This document shows, in pieces, positions 3-8,697 of a stretch of DNA of 45,345 nt (the first letter of the stretch is position 1; every line of letters starts with the position of its first letter). The position numbers were made by a program, and so were the translations under genes. Below the pieces are notes generated by a model. The model was given only the letters and a program-made list of their open reading frames with translations, had not been told where the DNA came from and did no database searches. Origin of the DNA: Alcaligenaceae bacterium (GTDB lineage Bacteria > Pseudomonadota > Gammaproteobacteria > Burkholderiales > Burkholderiaceae_B); the NCBI GenBank assembly GCA_947378965.1, contig CANCMG010000028.1:1-45345 (forward strand). The letters are read 5' to 3'.

Positions 3-530
3 AAAAAGGCGAAAGGCAAAGTTCAAAAGATTCACGCCGCTATTGCGAATGCCAGAAAAGATTTCTTGCATAAGACCAGTACCACGATCAGTCAAAACCA
101 CGCGCTCGTATGTATTGAGGATTTGCAGGTCAAGAACATGTCACAGTCCTCCAGGGGCAATCGCGAGCAGCACGGCAAGCGGGTGAGGCAGAAGTCCGGC
201 TTGAACCGCTCTATCCTTGACCAAGGCTGGGGTGAGTTCAGGCGACAACTCGACTACAAGGTCCAGTGGAACGGCGGCTTGTTGTTGGCCGTGCCGCCGC
301 AGCATACAAGCCAAACGTGTCCGGCCTGCGGCCACGTATCCAAAGAGAATCGACAGACTCAGGAAAAATTCCTGTGTATCGATTGTGACTATGAAAATCA
401 CGCTGACGTCGTTGGCGCGATCAATGTTTTAGAGCGGGGATACCGCTTGTTAGCCCGCGGAGAGTCGGTGCAGTCAGGCCGCTCAGTGAAGCAGGAACCC
501 ACCGAAGTGACTCAGGCAGCTTTTGCCTGA
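3..530 (+). CDS. tnpB: TnpB (OrfB) RNA-guided transposon nuclease, C-terminal part
   Basis: TnpB is the RuvC-type nuclease of IS200/IS605 elements. It is guided by an RNA made from the element's right end and cuts DNA next to a short target-adjacent motif. The reading frame is open from base 3, so the protein is cut by the window edge and the TTG at 66 is not its true start. Visible parts are the helical stretch with NARKDF, the second RuvC motif CIEDL with the catalytic Glu (codons near 114-128), a zinc ribbon with CPAC and CIDC (codons near 319-390), and the third RuvC motif with HADVVGAIN that supplies the catalytic Asp. The C-terminus is intact, with TGA at 528-530. The visible catalytic residues are conserved, so nothing in this part points to decay. 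Confidence 0.9.
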   Translation, partial: KKAKGKVQKIHAAIANARKDFLHKTSTTISQNHALVCIEDLQVKNMSQSSRGNREQHGKRVRQKSGLNRSILDQGWGEFRRQLDYKVQWNGGLLLAVPPQHTSQTCPACGHVSKENRQTQEKFLCIDCDYENHADVVGAINVLERGYRLLARGESVQSGRSVKQEPTEVTQAAFA

Positions 531-606: not shown

Positions 607-1680
607 TTAAGTACCCTTTGCAAAAAAAATCTCGCGTATATTTCTCCACAGCCGAGCCGGTAAGTTATGCCAAAGGCCGACCCGTCCTTCACGAATACAG
701 TTCAGGGTACGTTGATAAAAATTAGACAAACGCGCTAACCTTTGATATCTAAGTCGGTCTACGTAAAGTGTATTTGTATTGAAATCAGAAGCCACTCCAA
801 ATGCGTGGCGTAAATAGGTAAAGAACATGTTGGCCGGCCCAGACCAAGGCTTTTGAGACAAACGTTGAAAAGGCTCTGACTTGAGGACATTTGGCCCAAC
901 TAGCGTGAGTCTTTCTACTAAATCATGCGTTTTCATCAGCGACACTTGCCCAGTCGGAAACTGGTTTTCGCTCATGTGCACACATTGAATATAAGCATGC
1001 ATGGCTTGATCCACTGGGTCGAGCACGCCTACCTTTTCCCCTTCCCACTCATGCCATTGAGTATGATTGAGCGCGGGTCCATCTGGTAGCAATGGTGAGT
1101 ATCGGCTTCGAACCAAGGATGCATGAAACTCCAAGCGAGCTGACTCGCCATTTTTTAACAACGGTGGGTAGTGATGATCCCCTCCAAGCAATTGCCCGCC
1201 CTCTTCTGCCACGGACTCATAACCTAGCTCAGCAAGTTGTTTAAACGCGGTGTCATGTTGACCTTGATGCGGTATCCAAACGTCTAGATCTAACATGGTA
1301 CGAGGCGATTGCTGCCAATCGGCACGTAGCAAATGCGTGGCGCCTTTAAGCCACACGTGCACGATATCATGTTGATTCAAACATACAGTGACAGCTTGCA
1401 CTTGCGCTCTAAGACGGCTGTTTAACAGCACGTTCAGATCAAAAAAACCCTCTAGAGCTTGCCCGACCTCATTTGGTACACAATCAAGCAATTGCTTTCG
1501 AACTAGTGCTCGATAAAGCAATGGCAGCACCATACCCCGATGCGCCTGAGCCATGACCCTATCCCAGTCTAATTGACCTGATTCAATCGCTTTGGCCACT
1601 TCAGTGCTGTCGACGAGCGGCGAGATAGCGGAGCACAACCAATAATGGGTCGCTAATTGATCGATAGGTCTTTTAAACAA
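607..1680 (-). CDS. Family-5 nucleotidyltransferase of an HPr-rel-A-like cassette
   Basis: This 357-residue protein resembles the uncharacterised nucleotidyltransferase family NTP_transf_5. The core signature is visible: a WLKGA segment at residues 110-114, then DLDVW at 131-135, whose two aspartates would bind metal. The N-terminal helical region (residues 1-100) is typical of the family. Such proteins presumably move a nucleotidyl group onto a small molecule or protein, but the substrate is unknown. The only possible start is TTG at 1680, because the frame is closed by a stop a few codons upstream; a GAAGAG Shine-Dalgarno-like sequence lies 8 bases before it. It overlaps the upstream kinase gene by 28 bp, which indicates co-translation. 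The IS right end lies just downstream. Confidence 0.75.
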   Translation of the reverse strand: MFKRPIDQLATHYWLCSAISPLVDSTEVAKAIESGQLDWDRVMAQAHRGMVLPLLYRALVRKQLLDCVPNEVGQALEGFFDLNVLLNSRLRAQVQAVTVCLNQHDIVHVWLKGATHLLRADWQQSPRTMLDLDVWIPHQGQHDTAFKQLAELGYESVAEEGGQLLGGDHHYPPLLKNGESARLEFHASLVRSRYSPLLPDGPALNHTQWHEWEGEKVGVLDPVDQAMHAYIQCVHMSENQFPTGQVSLMKTHDLVERLTLVGPNVLKSEPFQRLSQKPWSGPANMFFTYLRHAFGVASDFNTNTLYVDRLRYQRLARLSNFYQRTLNCIREGRVGLWHNLPARLWRNIREIFFAKGT

Positions 1681-2981
1681 GCATTTATCTCTTCAAAGTG
1701 AGCGTACTCTATGGCAAAACACGGCAAGCGGCTCAATGCGTTTAAAGCATGGTCTATGGTTTGAATCGTGGGTGCGCCAAACATAGACAAACCCGCAGTG
1801 AGCAAGCCTTGCAAAGCCAAAGCAGGCCTTAAAGCCTGCACCTTTAGCGCTTGATCAGGCACAAAACGTGGCAGGATAATTGCATCCCAACTTGACGCTG
1901 TCTGATGGATGGCAGTGTGGGCGATGGGTAAGTATTTTGCTTCTTTCCCACCATAGCCATAGGGAAAAACTGATAAGTCAGCCAACTCAGAATAAAGTGT
2001 CAACAGTCTCGGCCAACTCCCTGACTTTAAACTGATTGCGGTCGGAAAGCGCAACAAACCTAACGACGGTGTTGACTGATCAACCTGATTGAGCTCAATG
2101 GCCAGAATATCGTCACCGAGCAATTCCCACCCGGCCTTTGCCAACAAAGCTGAAAGCGTGCTTTTACCCACACCAGACACGCCCGCTAGCGCCAAGCATC
2201 GCCCCTGCTTAACCCCGGCAGCATGTAGCGCAAACACCACGTCGCGCGCTGGATATGAGACGCCTATCATGGCTTCATACACGAACCCCATCTCCAGGCC
2301 TGCTTCAAGACGACGCGCTTGCTGATCGCCACTGTCCTGCAAGACGATATGTTTATCGTCAATTGATACGGTCACCCAGCCAGCTCCCGAAGGCCGCTTG
2401 TCAAGCTTGGCGAAACCCTCACAAATGGCGATCAGTCGCTCTGTGAACCCTTGTGTTGACGGATCAATCACCACCTTAGTGGTAGAAGAGCGAATTTGAA
2501 GTTCAAACGCCACATCTCCAAAGCAATAAAAGCCTTGGTGAATCACGTGATCACAAAAGGGCTCATCGGCAATTCTACTGAACGCCTTTGACTCAGGAGA
2601 GACCTGCTCAGCAGGCAAACAAAGACGCCACGTGTTCGAAACGTCACGAACGACCCAACCATACTGCAACCAGTTAGCCAAGCACACGTCGACATCACCA
2701 CGAGCCTGAGCTAGGGGCAAAGCGAACAAATCTGCATATTCTTTGACGATCTCATCGTCACTGGTGGCGTCACTGGTGAGGTCACTGGTGAGGTCACTGA
2801 GCAATAACCAAATGGCAGCAGACGCAGGATTGTGCAACTCAATGTGTCTTTTTTTAAGGTCGCAAGTCACGAGATGGTCGTCATACAACCAAGCACCAAA
2901 ACTCGAACTTTGCCCTAAACAATAAAGATACCGGTCATGTAATGCGATACTCAAATTTTTAACCATCAAAAATTGGGCCAA
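1653..2981 (-). CDS. PqqD-like domain fused to HprK-related kinase
   Basis: This is a 442-residue two-domain protein. Residues about 38-112 look like a PqqD-type peptide-binding domain: a beta strand region, then the NPASAAIW helix start at 51-58, and a C-terminal LANWLQYGW. Residues about 145-442 look like an HPr-kinase-like ATP-binding domain with a Walker A loop GVSGVGKST at 267-275 and GDD at 289-291. In most relatives I know, PqqD and the HprK-related kinase are separate neighbouring genes; here they are one chain. PqqD domains usually hold a precursor peptide for a modifying enzyme, so a kinase acting on a peptide is a fair inference. The start is uncertain: TTG at 2981 or ATG at 2966, neither with a clear Shine-Dalgarno. 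A 4-residue repeat (SDLT) lies at residues 62-75. Confidence 0.75.
   Translation of the reverse strand: MAQFLMVKNLSIALHDRYLYCLGQSSSFGAWLYDDHLVTCDLKKRHIELHNPASAAIWLLLSDLTSDLTSDATSDDEIVKEYADLFALPLAQARGDVDVCLANWLQYGWVVRDVSNTWRLCLPAEQVSPESKAFSRIADEPFCDHVIHQGFYCFGDVAFELQIRSSTTKVVIDPSTQGFTERLIAICEGFAKLDKRPSGAGWVTVSIDDKHIVLQDSGDQQARRLEAGLEMGFVYEAMIGVSYPARDVVFALHAAGVKQGRCLALAGVSGVGKSTLSALLAKAGWELLGDDILAIELNQVDQSTPSLGLLRFPTAISLKSGSWPRLLTLYSELADLSVFPYGYGGKEAKYLPIAHTAIHQTASSWDAIILPRFVPDQALKVQALRPALALQGLLTAGLSMFGAPTIQTIDHALNALSRLPCFAIEYAHFEEINACLKDLSIN
2757..2800. repeat. 12-bp in-frame tandem repeat inside the kinase gene
   Basis: A GTCACTGGTGAG unit is present about 3.7 times, one copy with a GC for AG change. 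It encodes SDLT/SDAT repeats in the linker between the first strands and helices of the PqqD-like domain. Since 12 is a multiple of three, gain or loss of units would change linker length without a frameshift. Confidence 0.9.
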
Positions 2982-3040
2982 GTGGCCAATGCTGGTGCAT
3001 AAAACATGACAAACGGTTTTAGCAATCTCGTTTGCTAGAA

Positions 3041-3211
3041 TCAGTAGGCGTGAGCGGGTTTATGGGATAACGCCAACACAGCGGGTATGGCGTATGCCGC
3101 GTACTTTCCAATTCGGCTCAAGGCCTTACGTCTGGTTTAATTCTCATCTGCTAACAAGTCATCGGATTTCTGATCGGGTTGGTTTGTGCCGGTTTGATCT
3201 GTCGGTTACGT
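3041..3211 (-). pseudogene. Decayed tandem copy of the small peptide gene
   Basis: This stretch is a clear diverged copy of the 59-codon gene at 3327-3506, in the same orientation. The codons match almost one by one across positions 2-45, including RRKAL, RIGKY and AYAIPAVLAL. The start codon has become ACG (3209-3211), the second codon is TAA (3206-3208), and a further TAA interrupts the frame at 3137-3139. The frame then runs on to TGA at 3041-3043 with a different tail. It is therefore a pseudogene lying between the intact copy and the kinase gene. Confidence 0.75.
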
Positions 3212-3326
3212 AAAATTAATCCTTAAGGTTGAGTCTGAAGCCAGTTAACTGATGATCACTTTAACTGCACAGACTGAACCAGGATCCCACTCGGCTCCCC
3301 GCTTATGATCCTGAGTCAAATGGTTA

Positions 3327-3506
3327 TTAACCATCACCTGAAACAGGTGTTGCTTTGGCTGTCAAAGCCAAAACCGCAGGTATTGCGTATGCTGAATACT
3401 TACCAATTCGACCTAATGCCTTACGTCTGGCTTGCTTCTCATCAGATCTCAAGTCATCAGATTTCTGATTGGGTTGATTTGTAGCAGTTTGATCTGTTGG
3501 TTTCAT
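3327..3506 (-). CDS. Small peptide (59 aa), possible substrate of the kinase cassette
   Basis: This short ORF starts with ATG at 3504-3506 and ends with TAA at 3327-3329. The N-terminal 25 residues are hydrophilic and rich in Gln, Asn, Asp and Lys. Then comes a basic ARRKAL segment (residues 26-31), a short hydrophobic stretch AYAIPAVLAL (39-48), and a small tail ending PVSGDG. Evidence that it is a real gene is the tandem decayed copy, which keeps the same codons in the core. It lies upstream of and on the same strand as the PqqD-kinase fusion and the nucleotidyltransferase. I infer that it could be a precursor peptide bound by the PqqD domain. The RR plus hydrophobic stretch also recalls an export signal. 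The Shine-Dalgarno is weak (GAG about 8 bases upstream). I do not recognise a named family. Confidence 0.6.
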   Translation of the reverse strand: MKPTDQTATNQPNQKSDDLRSDEKQARRKALGRIGKYSAYAIPAVLALTAKATPVSGDG

Positions 3507-3832
3507 AAAAATAATCTCAAAAGTTGTAAATTCAACGTGGCTGCTGCACCTATCTCCTATCTTAGCCTAACATGACAAGTCGCGCCCCTAGGGGCTTAAA
3601 CGCCGCTTGTGGTGGCTTGGCTAAGCTAAGCAGCCGGGGTAATCATTGAGGCCTAGGGCACGTAATGTCGGGTTTGGCATGGCTTGGTGCTGCGATGACA
3701 GCGATCCAGGTGCAATCGCATTTATTGAATTCAGTACCATGGCAGCACCATGAAAATCGCGAGCCTAAAAACACAAAAGTGAAATACGCCAGAGAGCCGC
3801 ATCAATAAACGGCTCACAACCCCAAGAGCCGC
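3507..3832. other. Non-coding stretch between the peptide gene and tRNA-Lys
   Basis: No convincing gene is visible on either strand. It holds a perfect 12-bp palindrome GCCCCTAGGGGC at 3584-3595 and several short GAGCCG/CGGCTC inverted copies around 3794-3831. The promoter of the peptide-kinase cassette presumably lies in 3507-3600, but I see no good -35/-10 pair. Confidence 0.5.
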
Positions 3833-3874
3833 AAAAACAAAAGGCCTCAAAGCATTTACGCTGAAAGACCTTTG
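3833..3874 (-). terminator. Likely Rho-independent terminator of tRNA-Lys
   Basis: Reading the minus strand, an imperfect stem (CAAAGG...CCTTTTG, with inner pairing of CAGC and GCTT) encloses a short loop and is followed by TTTTGTTTTTG. It lies just downstream of the tRNA-Lys gene in the transcription direction. Confidence 0.5.
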
Positions 3875-3882
3875 AATTTACT

Positions 3883-3959
3883 TGGTGGGCTGGGCGAGAC
3901 TCGAACTCGCGACCAACGGATTAAAAGTCCGCTGCTCTAACCAACTGAGCTACCAGCCC
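3883..3959 (-). tRNA. tRNA-Lys (anticodon TTT)
   Basis: A full cloverleaf reads on the minus strand. The acceptor stem GGGCTGG pairs with CCAGCCC, followed by A and an encoded CCA at 3883-3885. The D arm contains TAGCTCAGTTGG. The anticodon loop is CTTTTAA with anticodon TTT, closed by the GCGGA/TCCGT stem region. The T arm is GCGAG, TTCGAGT, CTCGC. Lysine identity follows from the anticodon. Confidence 0.97.
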
Positions 3960-4168
3960 CAAGCCCGCTATTATGACTTTTTACTGTTTTACTGTCAAAC
4001 CGCTACTGCAACTGCTGCTGCCTAGCCTAGGGAAAATGCCACTTGTGCAGAAGTTTCAGCAGTCTTAACATTGTTGTAGTTTATTTGTCTGTAACAGTAC
4101 TTTTTTAAAAAGTCTATACAGATCAAAGAACTAAATTCAACCGCCCTTATCCTCACAAGGAATCCAGC

Positions 4169-4957: not shown

Positions 4958-6151
4958 CTAGCAGCGCTCAAAAATCCCAGCTGCACCCATCCCTGTACCC
5001 ACGCACATCGTCACCATCGCGTATTTCAGATTGCGTCGGTGCAAGGCATGAATCGCCGTTGCACTGCGAATTGCACCGGTGGCACCCAAGGGGTGCCCCA
5101 GAGCGATTGCACCACCCAACGGGTTCACTTTAGCCGGATCAAGTTGTAGCTCTTGCATGACCGCCACCGCTTGCGCCGCGAACGCCTCGTTCAACTCGAT
5201 CCAATCGATCGCGTCTTGCTTTAAGCCGGCCAAGCGCAAGGCAGCGGGGATCGCCTCTTTAGGGCCAATCCCCATGATCTCTGGTGCCACCCCTTTAATC
5301 GCAAAGCTCACAAACCGGGCCAGCGGCGTCAAATTAAATTGCTTTAAGGCTTTTTCGCTCACGATCAGCAAGGCGCCTGCGCCATCAGACGTCTGCGAAC
5401 TATTACCCGCTGTCACACTGCCTTTGGCCGCAAACACCGCGCGTAATTTAGCCAAACCTTCAAGTGTCGTGTCGGCGCGCGGTCCTTCGTCTTGGGTAAA
5501 AGACTGCCACGACACATCGACCTCGCCAAGTGCCAGATTCATCTTGCGTTGTGCGACTTGTACCGCAAACGTTTCAGCGCTGAACTCGCCAGCCGCTTGC
5601 GCTGCTAAGGCTTTTTGATGTGATGCCAAAGCGAAGGCGTCTTGCGCTTCGCGACTGACTTTCCATTGCTGAGCAACTTTCTCGGCGGTTAGCCCCATGC
5701 CATAGGCAATGCCAATATTTTCATCTTTAAAAATATCAGGGGATAAGGATGGGGTGTTGCCGCTCATGGGCACCATACTCATCGACTCAACACCGCCGGC
5801 GATCATGACATCAGCTTCGCCGACACGGATTCGATCGGCGGCCATCGCGATCGCATTGAGCCCCGAAGAGCAAAACCGATTGATCGTGATCCCACCTACG
5901 GTATTCGGCAGGCCCGCCAACAACAGTGCAATACGAGCGACATTTAGGCCCTGCTGCGCCTCAGGCATCGCGCAGCCAACGATCACGTCTTCGACTGCCT
6001 TTGGATCTAGACTTGGCGCCTGCGACAGCAAATGTTTAAGCGTTTGTGCAAAGAGGTCATCGGGCCGCGTGGTGCGCAGCGCGCCGCGGCCTGACTTGCC
6101 GACCGGGGCACGGGTTGCGGCGACGATATAGGCATCTTGAAGAGCTTTCAT
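4958..6151 (-). CDS. fadA: Acetyl-CoA C-acyltransferase (thiolase)
   Basis: This is a thiolase of 397 residues, the usual length. It performs the last step of beta-oxidation, splitting 3-ketoacyl-CoA with CoA into acetyl-CoA and a shortened acyl-CoA. The acyl-accepting cysteine is Cys94 in NRFCSSGLNA. The C-terminal catalytic residues are His353 in GHPLGATGA and Cys383 in CVGTGMGAAG. The start ATG at 6151 is preceded by AGGAAA at good distance. It lies 89 bp downstream of the FadB-like gene and is the last gene of the regulator, acyl-CoA dehydrogenase, FadB, FadA run. The family also includes biosynthetic thiolases, but the context favours the degradative type. Confidence 0.93.
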   Translation of the reverse strand: MKALQDAYIVAATRAPVGKSGRGALRTTRPDDLFAQTLKHLLSQAPSLDPKAVEDVIVGCAMPEAQQGLNVARIALLLAGLPNTVGGITINRFCSSGLNAIAMAADRIRVGEADVMIAGGVESMSMVPMSGNTPSLSPDIFKDENIGIAYGMGLTAEKVAQQWKVSREAQDAFALASHQKALAAQAAGEFSAETFAVQVAQRKMNLALGEVDVSWQSFTQDEGPRADTTLEGLAKLRAVFAAKGSVTAGNSSQTSDGAGALLIVSEKALKQFNLTPLARFVSFAIKGVAPEIMGIGPKEAIPAALRLAGLKQDAIDWIELNEAFAAQAVAVMQELQLDPAKVNPLGGAIALGHPLGATGAIRSATAIHALHRRNLKYAMVTMCVGTGMGAAGIFERC

Positions 6152-6240
6152 AAATAGTTTCCTTTCGCGATTATTTCTGACTTTGGCCGAGCAGCGACTT
6201 TTGCGACTGCTACGGCACCTGAGTCAATGACTATTTTTTA

Positions 6241-8697
6241 CTAATTACGCACAGGCTTGCCGTCTTGCAGCAGGCCCATCACGCGCTCGATCGATTTTGG
6301 ATGGGCAATCAGCTCGATAAACGCTTTGCGTTCAAGCTTAAGCAACCACTCTTCAGACACCAGCGTACCCGCCTCAACATCACCACCCGTGATGATGTCG
6401 ATGATTTTTTTAGCAATGAAACAATCATGCTCTGAAATAAATCCGCCATCGCGCATGTTGACTAGCTGTCCCATCACGGTGGCGGCCACTGACCGACCTG
6501 CCACGGCGATCGGAGCTTTGACGGGAGGGCGATAGCCTGCGTAGTGCATGGCCTTGACTTGCGCCTGGGCCTGCGCCAATAACTCATACACATTGGCCAC
6601 AATGATGTCCTCTGACTTGAGGTAATCCATCTTCAAGGCCTCATGCGCCGAGCCAGAGACTTTTGCCATCGCCGCATTTTCAAACGAAGCTGTGATGAAA
6701 TTCAAAAAGTTTGCTGCGGCGGGTAACTGACCGATTTTTTCGACACTGCGCGCAGCCCTGAGCGCGGCTTCTTTCAAGCCGCCACCAGCAGGCAGCAGGC
6801 CCACGCCGATTTCTACGAGTCCGATATAACTTTCGATGGTGGCAACACGCCTTGCGGCCTGCAGTATCAACTCGCAACCGCCCCCCAGCGCAATCCCAGA
6901 TACCGCGCAGACCACGGGGACTTGCGCATACTTCACGCGCATCATCGTATCTTGAAACAATTGCACAAAGGGCTCGACCCCTTGCGGGCCACCTTGCATC
7001 ACCAACGGCATAGCCGCCTCTAAATTGGCCCCTGCCGAAAATGGGCCGCCCGGCACGCCCGACTGCAGCGAACTCGTCTGCCAGATGACGACGCCAGCGA
7101 ATTGATTTTCAGCCAAGTCAATGGCTTGCTGAATGCCGTTCAACACGTCTGAACTGAAAGTGTTCATTTTTGAGCGAAACGACACCACCAACACCTCTGG
7201 TTGCCCGGCATCGACCCACGCACGCAAGTCAGTATTTTCAAAAATGGTTTGACCTGCCTTGCGTGGATCGGGCGAACCGTCTCCAAGCAAGGGGGCTCTG
7301 AACACTTGTTTTTGATAGACCGGCAGGTTTGAACGCGGCACATAGGTTTTTTGTTGAGCTGACCAAGAACCCTCTGGCGTATGAACGGCCTGGCGCTGTG
7401 CCACCGGGCCGGCAAAGACCCACTCTGGCAACGGCGCTGTACTCAGGGCCTTGCCTTGTTCAATATCTTCTTTGACCCACTGCGCCACTTGCGACCAGCC
7501 CGCATCTTGCCAGTCTTCAAACGGACCGCGCGCCCAGCCATAGCCCCAGCGCATGGCAAAATCAATTTCGCGTGCTGAGTCGGCAATCGACTCGAGATGC
7601 ACGGCGATGTAGTGGAAAATATCCCGAAAAATAGCCCATAAAAACTGCGCCTGCGGCTCGTCGGTTTCACGCAATAGGGCGAAACGCTCGGCCACCGGTT
7701 TTTTGAGTATGCGGTCTACGATTGGCGCAATGGTAGCGGTAGAGGGCTCGTACTCTTTGGTTGCCGCGTTCAGTACCAAGACCGCTTTGCCTTCTTTTTT
7801 AAAGAAGCCTGCTTTGGTCTTTTGGCCTAAGCGTCCTAAGGAGATCAAAGACGCTAGCACTTCAGGCACTTTAAACAACGCAGAAAAGGGATCTTGCTTG
7901 AGGCCGTTTTCCATTGTGCGGATGACATTGGCCAAGGTATCAAGCCCCACCACATCACTAGTACGAAAGGTCGCTGATTTTGCGCGGCCAAGCTTACTGC
8001 CTGTGAGCACATCCACCACATCAAAACCTAGCTTGTATTTTTCGGCCTCGGCAAAAACGGCCAAGATCGCAAACACGCCAACGCGATTACCAACAAAATT
8101 AGGCGTATCTTTCGCGCGCACGACTCCTTTGCCCATGGTCGACGTCATAAAGGTTTCGAGCTGATCCAGAATCAAAGGATCGGTCGCTGGCAAGGGGATT
8201 AACTCAAGCAAGTGCATGTAACGCGGCGGATTAAAAAAATGCACGCCGCAAAAGCGCTTTTTCAAGTCGCCTGAAAATCCGGCCGACAACTCGGCAATCG
8301 ATAATCCAGAGGTATTAGTCGCAAAAATTGTATGCGCTGCAATGTGTGGCGCCACTTTTTCGTAGAGCGCATGCTTCCAGTCTAAGCGCTCGGCGATGGC
8401 CTCAATCACCAAATCGCATTCGGCTAACCGCGCCAGGTCATCGTCATAATTAGCGGGCTGAATCAAGTCGGCGCTGGCGGCAACAGTCAAGGGCGCGGGG
8501 CTTAGTTTTTTTAAATTATCAATTGCCCTAAGCGCAATCGTATTGTTATGTTGCGGCTTACCGTCTTTTGTTAACGGGGCCGCCAAATCAAACAAAATCA
8601 CGGGCACGCCCACGTTGACGCAATGAGCGGCGATTTGCGCCCCCATCACACCGGCACCCAAAACTGCCACTTTACGTATTGGTCGATTCACTTGCAT
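6241..8697 (-). CDS. fadB: 3-hydroxyacyl-CoA dehydrogenase/enoyl-CoA hydratase, bifunctional
   Basis: This 818-residue protein catalyses two middle steps of beta-oxidation: hydration of enoyl-CoA and NAD-dependent oxidation of 3-hydroxyacyl-CoA. The NAD-binding loop GAGVMGA is at residues 14-20. The dehydrogenase signature with HFFNPP follows near 150, with further dehydrogenase C-terminal helices to about 420. A crotonase-type hydratase domain is at the C-terminal side (about 485-720), with the oxyanion-hole segments SAGANL and SGIALGGGCEL. This order, dehydrogenase first, is opposite to E. coli FadB and like the FadN type of Bacillus. A GAGGA site precedes the ATG. It sits between the acyl-CoA dehydrogenase and thiolase genes on the same strand. 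Confidence 0.92.
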   Translation of the reverse strand: MQVNRPIRKVAVLGAGVMGAQIAAHCVNVGVPVILFDLAAPLTKDGKPQHNNTIALRAIDNLKKLSPAPLTVAASADLIQPANYDDDLARLAECDLVIEAIAERLDWKHALYEKVAPHIAAHTIFATNTSGLSIAELSAGFSGDLKKRFCGVHFFNPPRYMHLLELIPLPATDPLILDQLETFMTSTMGKGVVRAKDTPNFVGNRVGVFAILAVFAEAEKYKLGFDVVDVLTGSKLGRAKSATFRTSDVVGLDTLANVIRTMENGLKQDPFSALFKVPEVLASLISLGRLGQKTKAGFFKKEGKAVLVLNAATKEYEPSTATIAPIVDRILKKPVAERFALLRETDEPQAQFLWAIFRDIFHYIAVHLESIADSAREIDFAMRWGYGWARGPFEDWQDAGWSQVAQWVKEDIEQGKALSTAPLPEWVFAGPVAQRQAVHTPEGSWSAQQKTYVPRSNLPVYQKQVFRAPLLGDGSPDPRKAGQTIFENTDLRAWVDAGQPEVLVVSFRSKMNTFSSDVLNGIQQAIDLAENQFAGVVIWQTSSLQSGVPGGPFSAGANLEAAMPLVMQGGPQGVEPFVQLFQDTMMRVKYAQVPVVCAVSGIALGGGCELILQAARRVATIESYIGLVEIGVGLLPAGGGLKEAALRAARSVEKIGQLPAAANFLNFITASFENAAMAKVSGSAHEALKMDYLKSEDIIVANVYELLAQAQAQVKAMHYAGYRPPVKAPIAVAGRSVAATVMGQLVNMRDGGFISEHDCFIAKKIIDIITGGDVEAGTLVSEEWLLKLERKAFIELIAHPKSIERVMGLLQDGKPVRN

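Follow-up and report, generated by a model that had tools for sequence, protein, structure and literature searches.

The stretch of DNA analysed here (the window) comprises 45,345 nucleotides of contig CANCMG010000028.1 from an Alcaligenaceae bacterium (assembly GCA_947378965.1), and its start is the first base of the contig. Its reverse strand, to which all cassette coordinates below refer, carries a gene cassette that is probably a system for the modification of a small peptide. It consists of a peptide gene of 59 codons with an ATG start (3327-3506), a decayed second copy of this gene (about 3041-3211), a gene for a fused PqqD-HprK-like kinase of 442 amino acids (1653-2981) and a gene for a nucleotidyltransferase-like protein of 357 amino acids belonging to NTP_transf_5 (PF14907; 607-1680). 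The open reading frames (ORFs) lie in the order given by the original prediction, which was made from the letters of this stretch, and the 28-bp overlap that it reported between the kinase and nucleotidyltransferase genes is found at 1653-1680. The same two genes of a relative (L152) likewise overlap by 28 bp.

The kinase ORF begins with TTG in the ORF list, its exact start being uncertain, and residues 1-25 are modelled with a low predicted local distance difference test (pLDDT) score. The domain that follows (residues 26-113; 2643-2906) had been described as PqqD-like. It scores 19.3 bits with PF05402, below the gathering cut-off of 23.4, which is passed by three of nine other fused kinases (L157, 45.0 bits; L152, 32.1 bits; L138, 24.2 bits), the remaining six giving no PqqD match at E<=0.01. 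Alignment of residues 26-113 to stand-alone PqqD proteins with hhalign gave a probability of 89%, and the AlphaFold2 model contains three strands (28-33, 36-41 and 46-50) and then three helices (52-66, 75-85 and 90-107). A Foldseek search, run with the model of the whole kinase, its matched range not printed and its VIA-align list filled by the kinase domain, retrieved TbiB1 (5v1u, 5v1v), solved with its bound leader, at a template modelling (TM) score of 0.70 by target length, a root-mean-square deviation of 2.8 over 84 columns, probability 1.00 and E 0.044. A profile match to TbiB1 was also obtained (profile positions 21-79, E 0.054). Because Foldseek, hhalign, the PDB-profile match and the secondary structure agree, the N-terminal domain is predicted to be a lasso-type RiPP recognition element (RRE; RiPP, ribosomally synthesized and post-translationally modified peptide) with a winged-helix fold, and the PqqD-like assignment is upheld by the relatives, hhalign and the fold. 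The two domains differ in that sequence identity is 17% and in that TbiB1 is a discrete protein of a lasso pathway.

In the model, the C-terminal domain (residues 245-442; 1656-2249) folds as an HprK/PEPCK-type kinase, and both the P-loop and the HprK/P fold are found. The P-loop GVSGVGKSTL (residues 267-276; 2154-2183) contains G270, G272, K273, T275 and L276, which are invariant, together with the downstream D290, in 11 kinases that had not been picked by a P-loop pattern; alignment A4, whose loci were pattern-selected, was set aside for this comparison. HprK/P acts on the protein HPr. The window protein differs from HprK/P structures (1kkl, 1jb1, 1ko7, 3tqf) by its fused RRE and by the linked peptide gene. 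With the HprK_rel_A model TIGR04352 it reaches 54.2 bits, the cut-off being 200; the scores of five further fused kinases are 65-100 bits. The nucleotidyltransferase assignment of the original prediction is borne out by PF14907 (E 3e-25; 89.6 bits, gathering cut-off 31.2). Residues K112, G113, R127, D131, D133, Y154 and H186 are invariant across 13 nucleotidyltransferase sequences, and the signature KG...R...D-L-D occupies residues 112-133 (1282-1347). A sequence search of the PDB with this protein gave no match.

No close relative of the window kinase was found by single-sequence search of genome_contigs, in viral_contigs, or in an order sample of 399 genomes, where the best other score was about 34 bits. 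In the phylum sample the best scores were 76, 72, 67 and 58 bits; these loci encode fused kinases of 384-418 amino acids with a short peptide nearby bearing a leader of the RRxxLxxxG[KRN] type (weak in L088). Locus L102 was rejected as a fused kinase, its N-terminus not being PqqD-like, and is left out of the counts.

In precursor peptides, a conserved leader is usually followed by a variable tail. The window peptide can be divided into a leader (residues 1-48) and a putative core (about residues 49-59). The conserved block RRKALGRIGKYSAYAIPAVLAL (residues 27-48; 3363-3428) fits the family pattern RRxxLxxxGKxAxYxxP, and within it YAIPAV (residues 40-45; 3372-3389) fits the [Y/W]xxPx[L/V/I/A/F/Y] motif of lasso RREs. 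Ser56 of PVSGDG (3339-3341) is a candidate phospho-acceptor. Of 62 unique family peptides, 61 could be anchored clearly; 59 of these have a Ser in the core and 29 have an SG motif. The decayed copy, already noticed in the original prediction, aligns at 3056-3208 with 75% identity to the intact peptide, has an altered start codon and two internal TAA stops, and is matched by a window-free model at E 9e-9. In the leader, most differences between the copies are synonymous. Over 45 codons the non-synonymous (dN) and synonymous (dS) divergences between the copies are 0.093 and 1.06, and over the 22 leader codons RRKAL..LAL they are 0.04 and 1.92, one stop codon being left out and the numbers being small. 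Past the leader, 9 of 10 compared codons change meaning. The leader codons of the two copies have diverged under purifying selection, and the window peptide is a real gene.

Family models built without the window sequence recognise this peptide. Among 499 window ORFs it ranks first (E 1e-9; next 0.38), and in its own 4.5-Mb genome the only strong matches are the two window copies (E 9e-9 and 1.3e-7; next 0.145). The rows of these window-free models had been found with model A2, which held the window row and found the later peptides, or with a model containing the window row. Among 268 genomes of the family searched with the peptide, its own genome alone matched. At E<=1 neither Pfam nor NCBIfam yielded a match to the window peptide, and with the other family peptides tested no model of either collection exceeded its cut-off. 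A weak peptide match was also seen in two Cupriavidus plasmids; in the plasmid inspected it shares sequence with the beginning of a porin gene, and it was taken as chance.

The occurrence of the peptide and the fused kinase was compared in a phylum sample of 398 genomes, with model A2 at E<1e-10 for the peptide and model A1 at E<1e-69 for full-length fused kinases. The peptide was strongly matched in 12 genomes and the kinase in 13, all 12 being among the 13; in the thirteenth, G817, the peptide is matched weakly (E 0.0054) next to the cassette. Peptide seeds had come from seven of the 12 peptide genomes. The remaining five (G687, G846, G861, G950 and G990) all have the fused kinase, and since kinase seeds came from G687 and G990, the genomes G846, G861 and G950 seeded neither model. 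All three have a kinase that went undetected in the single-sequence search, with the peptide 57-127 bp away from it. Among the 39 genomes of the genus to which G818 belongs, the same ten have both fused kinase and peptide, and no genome had one alone at the thresholds used. In each of the ten, one peptide lies 1.1-1.2 kb from the kinase, a distance that could accommodate the nucleotidyltransferase gene, which in L096 is located there. Leaving out the seed G818, the chance of this overlap was calculated by hand as 1 in C(38,9), about 6e-9; co-occurrence probabilities of this kind ignore shared ancestry.

Linkage was also examined at 22 loci found with a kinase pattern. Fifteen encode fused kinases, and 13 of these (three seed loci included) have a peptide within 1.5 kb, none being found near the kinases of L165 and L166; the peptides of L157 and L159, both counted, are identical. 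A search of 2423 ORFs gave 29 peptide matches at E<1e-3, each of them no more than 1.5 kb away from a kinase. The check proposed originally, a search for the peptide next to cassette genes in other genomes, thus gave positive results at 13/15 fused-kinase loci and, as described below, at 4/4 plasmid loci. The peptide family occurring without the kinase cassette, named at the outset as the observation that would count against the idea, was seen in neither the 398 nor the 39 genomes at the thresholds used. Plasmid records form an apparent exception, which is explained for Sinorhizobium meliloti Ak57.

A Rhizobium peptide query matched 70 plasmid records, 40 of which were listed. A fused kinase is also encoded on the seven records whose peptide matches are long (67-100% of the query). 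The other 63 records, from Sinorhizobium and Ensifer, gave no kinase with a query from Rhizobium at E 1e-10, and the peptide match was partial in the 33 listed. Three of these 33 (L188, L189 and L193) were read individually, the model confirming L188 and L189 as genuine members of the family (E 1e-15 to 1e-22). With a second kinase query, a kinase was detected in 27 records, among them NZ_CP021802, NZ_CP083373 and NZ_CP098809 of the 33 listed, as well as a 3.7-Mb record of S. meliloti Ak57. Four loci selected by kinase from the 27 records (L192, L194, L195 and L196) all have a peptide beside the cassette. The Ak57 record carries a kinase/nucleotidyltransferase pair with a peptide beside it, and another replicon of this strain, one of the 33, bears a further peptide; the kinase can therefore be in trans. 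In R. tropici CIAT 899 the kinase was matched in part, and the peptide query found nothing. The 3.7-Mb Ak57 record (CP090106.1) is labelled pSymB, carries hisD and infA, and looks like a chromosome.

In 21 peptide-kinase pairs (one leader, that of L163, shortened by the anchor rule), leader distances correlate with PqqD-domain distances (r 0.52), and the partial correlation with the HprK-domain distance held is 0.36 (p 0.0004). The partial correlation of the leader with the HprK domain is also strong (0.45), and therefore shared ancestry may account for the co-variation. The strict [Y/W]xxPx motif occurs in 8 of 54 family peptides, against 0.6 expected from shuffling 51 segments; five of 59 peptide rows, from loci fetched twice (L153, L158 and L161), had been dropped, and three of the 54 had no anchor for shuffling. 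According to PMC13381572, the [Y/W]xxPx[L/V/I/A/F/Y] motif is what lasso RREs bind. The leader strings do not occur in the literature searched.

The same leaders admit another explanation, which we regard as unlikely: the peptides could be mainly signal peptides of the twin-arginine translocation (Tat) or Sec type, with the PqqD domain as a signal-peptide-binding chaperone and the enzymes modifying the exported part or controlling export. Many family members have RRxFLK-like starts and AxA-like ends, weak matches to TAT_signal occur in L082 (E 0.081) and L084 (E 0.57) and one to formate_TAT in L082 (E 0.016; 15.5 bits against a cut-off of 48), and larger proteins with similar twin-arginine N-termini adjoin stand-alone HprK_rel_A kinases. 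However, the gathering score of TAT_signal (PF10518) is not reached by L082, L084 or the window peptide, which, as noted, lacks any Pfam or NCBIfam match, and the matches of the others stay below the cut-offs. In addition, the window and Ancylobacter-type peptides have few residues past the hydrophobic block, that is, almost no cargo.

Different reports on Bacilli and lasso pathways indicate what such a cassette could do. In the pathway of the linear polyphosphorylated peptides (LPP) of Bacilli (members LppA, LppK, LppB, LppS, LppD and LppN), LppK phosphorylates Ser3 of the LppA core (PMC13381572). For paeninodin and pseudomycoidin, PadeK and PsmK modify the C-terminal Ser of the linear precursor, and PsmN adds a hexose to the phosphoserine (PMC9266682). 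HprK-like kinases associated with RREs therefore act on peptides in these systems. The LPP pathway resembles the window cassette in its HprK-like kinase, its RRE, its uncharacterised NTP transferase and its short peptide with a YxxPxVL leader, and it includes no lasso macrolactam cyclase. It differs in that its RRE is a discrete protein whereas that of the window is fused to the kinase, and the hosts of fused kinases named here are Pseudomonadota by our own placement. Of the LPP leader YxxPxVLxHQxIxFETxxS, the window peptide has YxxPxVL in the form YAIPAVL, and the HQxIxFET part is absent from the window peptide and its family. No SpI peptidase or MsbA exporter of the LPP types was recognised by eye among the neighbours, no search having been aimed at them.

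The paeninodin and pseudomycoidin systems share with the cassette a kinase and a nucleotidyltransferase-like partner acting on phosphoserine, and several relatives of the window peptide end in Ser; they differ in that the window RRE is fused to the kinase. Neither a lasso macrolactam synthetase (C) nor a B2 peptidase was recognised by eye among the window ORFs, the genome not having been searched for them. The HPr-rel-A system (TIGR04352, HprK-related kinase A; TIGR04353, PqqD_rel_X) has the same order of PqqD, HprK-like kinase and nucleotidyltransferase, and its kinase is related to the fused type (L050 scores 423.9 and 55.8 bits). In the window, the PqqD domain is fused and a separate TIGR04353 gene is absent, the kinase falls short of the TIGR04352 cut-off (54.2 versus 200), and the linked protein of HPr-rel-A mostly has 130-260 residues and is not a short peptide. 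The term HPr-rel-A was not found in the literature searched, and the word kinase is absent from the main text of the RRE-Finder paper and of a 2025 structure-based RRE paper. Since literature searches showed nothing closer than LPP, we consider the cassette, which is real and conserved, to be undescribed.

Taken with these comparisons, the cassette probably modifies peptides, as had been proposed, and is best read as a RiPP-like system. The leader would be bound by the RRE and a Ser of the core phosphorylated by the kinase, with the nucleotidyltransferase acting afterwards. Direct support comes from the domains present and their folds, from signature residues that are intact, from the conserved linkage and co-occurrence of the genes and from the conservation of the leader, and the proposal also agrees with the leader-PqqD co-variation. 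The peptide is likely to be the substrate of the cassette enzymes. In this scheme, the PqqD/RRE domain of the fused enzyme would hold the twin-arginine/proline leader (RRKALGRIGKYSAYAIPAV), the HprK-type kinase would then phosphorylate a Ser near the C-terminus of the peptide, for which Ser56 is the candidate, and the PF14907 enzyme might add a sugar or a nucleotidyl group to the phosphopeptide, by analogy with what has been reviewed for PsmN on pseudomycoidin. The peptide would presumably be exported.

Several observations weigh against this scheme. No adjacent peptide was found for the fused-kinase locus L083, nor for L165 and L166 mentioned above; the peptides of L090 and L094 are only found about 50-70 kb off, and some family peptides lie far from any kinase. 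Family peptides occur on Sinorhizobium and Ensifer plasmid records on which no kinase was found. Just 8 of the 54 peptides have the strict YxxPx motif, and many family leaders resemble twin-arginine signal peptides. The common core Ser is weak evidence, Ser being frequent in such segments and two of the 61 anchored peptides having none, and a C-terminal Ser or Cys is found in 17 of 26 short peptides but not in the window peptide. Finally, deletion of the LPP nucleotidyltransferase gene changed nothing detectable, according to PMC13381572.

The peptide could instead be a regulator, activating or inhibiting a kinase whose substrate is another protein. Modification of the peptide is itself inferred, and co-occurrence and leader-domain co-variation would fit any binding partner. 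However, the conserved leader and variable tail are typical of precursors, as are the tandem arrays of 3-6 peptides with one kinase each in Ancylobacter/Xanthobacteraceae loci (L153-L156 and L160), and the closest studied kinases modify the peptide of their own cluster, so that a regulatory role appears improbable.

A toxin-antitoxin or defence module formed by the nucleotidyltransferase and the kinase seems very remote. There is a toxin-antitoxin system whose toxin is reportedly a nucleotidyltransferase. That system is neutralised by phosphorylation of the toxin (PMC7205606). However, PADLOC at E<=0.01 gave no match for the peptide or the nucleotidyltransferase and, for the kinase P-loop, only VakA (E 0.007), and an RRE domain and a precursor-like peptide are unexpected in such modules.

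Beyond the peptide gene lies a tRNA-Lys gene (3883-3959, reverse strand), and on the other side, near the contig edge, the C-terminal part of a TnpB family protein (66-530, forward strand; NF040570, E 4e-36). The tRNA-side flank was searched in 26 genomes of the genus and four regions were taken; two of them (L184 and L185) extend past tRNA-Lys and have other genes there and no cassette, and in the other two the contigs end at this point. The locus is therefore variable. It could be argued that the family is real and the window copy a decaying remnant without function, as one peptide copy is broken, a piece of TnpB lies close by, and two genomes of the same genus lack the cassette at this site. 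The kinase and nucleotidyltransferase frames are nevertheless open, with the invariant residues of their families, and the other peptide is intact; we judge decay of the whole cassette to be improbable. Compared with shuffled sequences, a scan for promoters and terminators gave a lower number of promoter-like sites and a slightly higher number of terminator-like ones, and its result was not used. Near the same tRNA-Lys site, L185 has a short ORF (3777-3968, forward strand) that ends in ...VVVLDVSDDALEQAAGGGTAYAQVSWLNLQTHCVA and resembles a precursor peptide.

At many stand-alone HprK_rel_A loci (L034-L052 and L092-L103) a protein of 130-260 amino acids with an RRRLxKG...P-like N-terminus lies beside the kinase. 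A leader model built from ten such loci matched, at E<=0.01, proteins of ten more of the 43 loci searched. On the window peptide it gives E 1.7, so the link between the two protein groups is one of pattern and not of significant match. These twin-arginine proteins may be substrates of the HPr-rel-A system. Peptide-model matches with RRRLLKxGAYVPPAI leaders occur in L148 (7442-7816, forward strand; E 2e-6) and L149 (6474-7043, reverse strand; E 2e-4), where they adjoin an unfused HprK-like kinase and a nucleotidyltransferase. In L033, a 54-residue peptide with the lasso-like leader motif KKTWVTPKV lies 15-179 bp upstream of a divergent HprK-like kinase (5486-6385, reverse strand), and collar-type proteins were seen nearby by eye.

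A wider proposal, to which we give little credence, is that kinases of this type across Pseudomonadota, whether fused or with separate PqqD, serve one phospho-tagging system for exported peptides and proteins with twin-arginine/proline leaders, the PF14907 enzyme adding a sugar to the phosphoserine and the peptide serving as an exopolysaccharide primer or anchor. It was suggested because several cassettes adjoin polysaccharide-export or dTDP-rhamnose genes. Genes for exopolysaccharide export, dTDP-rhamnose or other polysaccharides are found beside the cassettes of L086, L089, L138 and L143 (by eye) and of L194 and L195 (by annotation), and no polysaccharide neighbours were seen by eye in the window or in L140.

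For the named families of HprK-related kinases, PqqD_rel_X chaperones and PF14907, we found no demonstrated substrate outside lasso and LPP clusters. The present work supplies a leader motif and a family of candidate substrates, together with hosts amenable to growth or manipulation, such as Rhizobium, Sinorhizobium meliloti, Ancylobacter and Thalassotalea. The cassette, whose peptide gene accompanies the kinase and nucleotidyltransferase genes in many bacteria, points to a putative and unstudied chemical tagging of small peptides.

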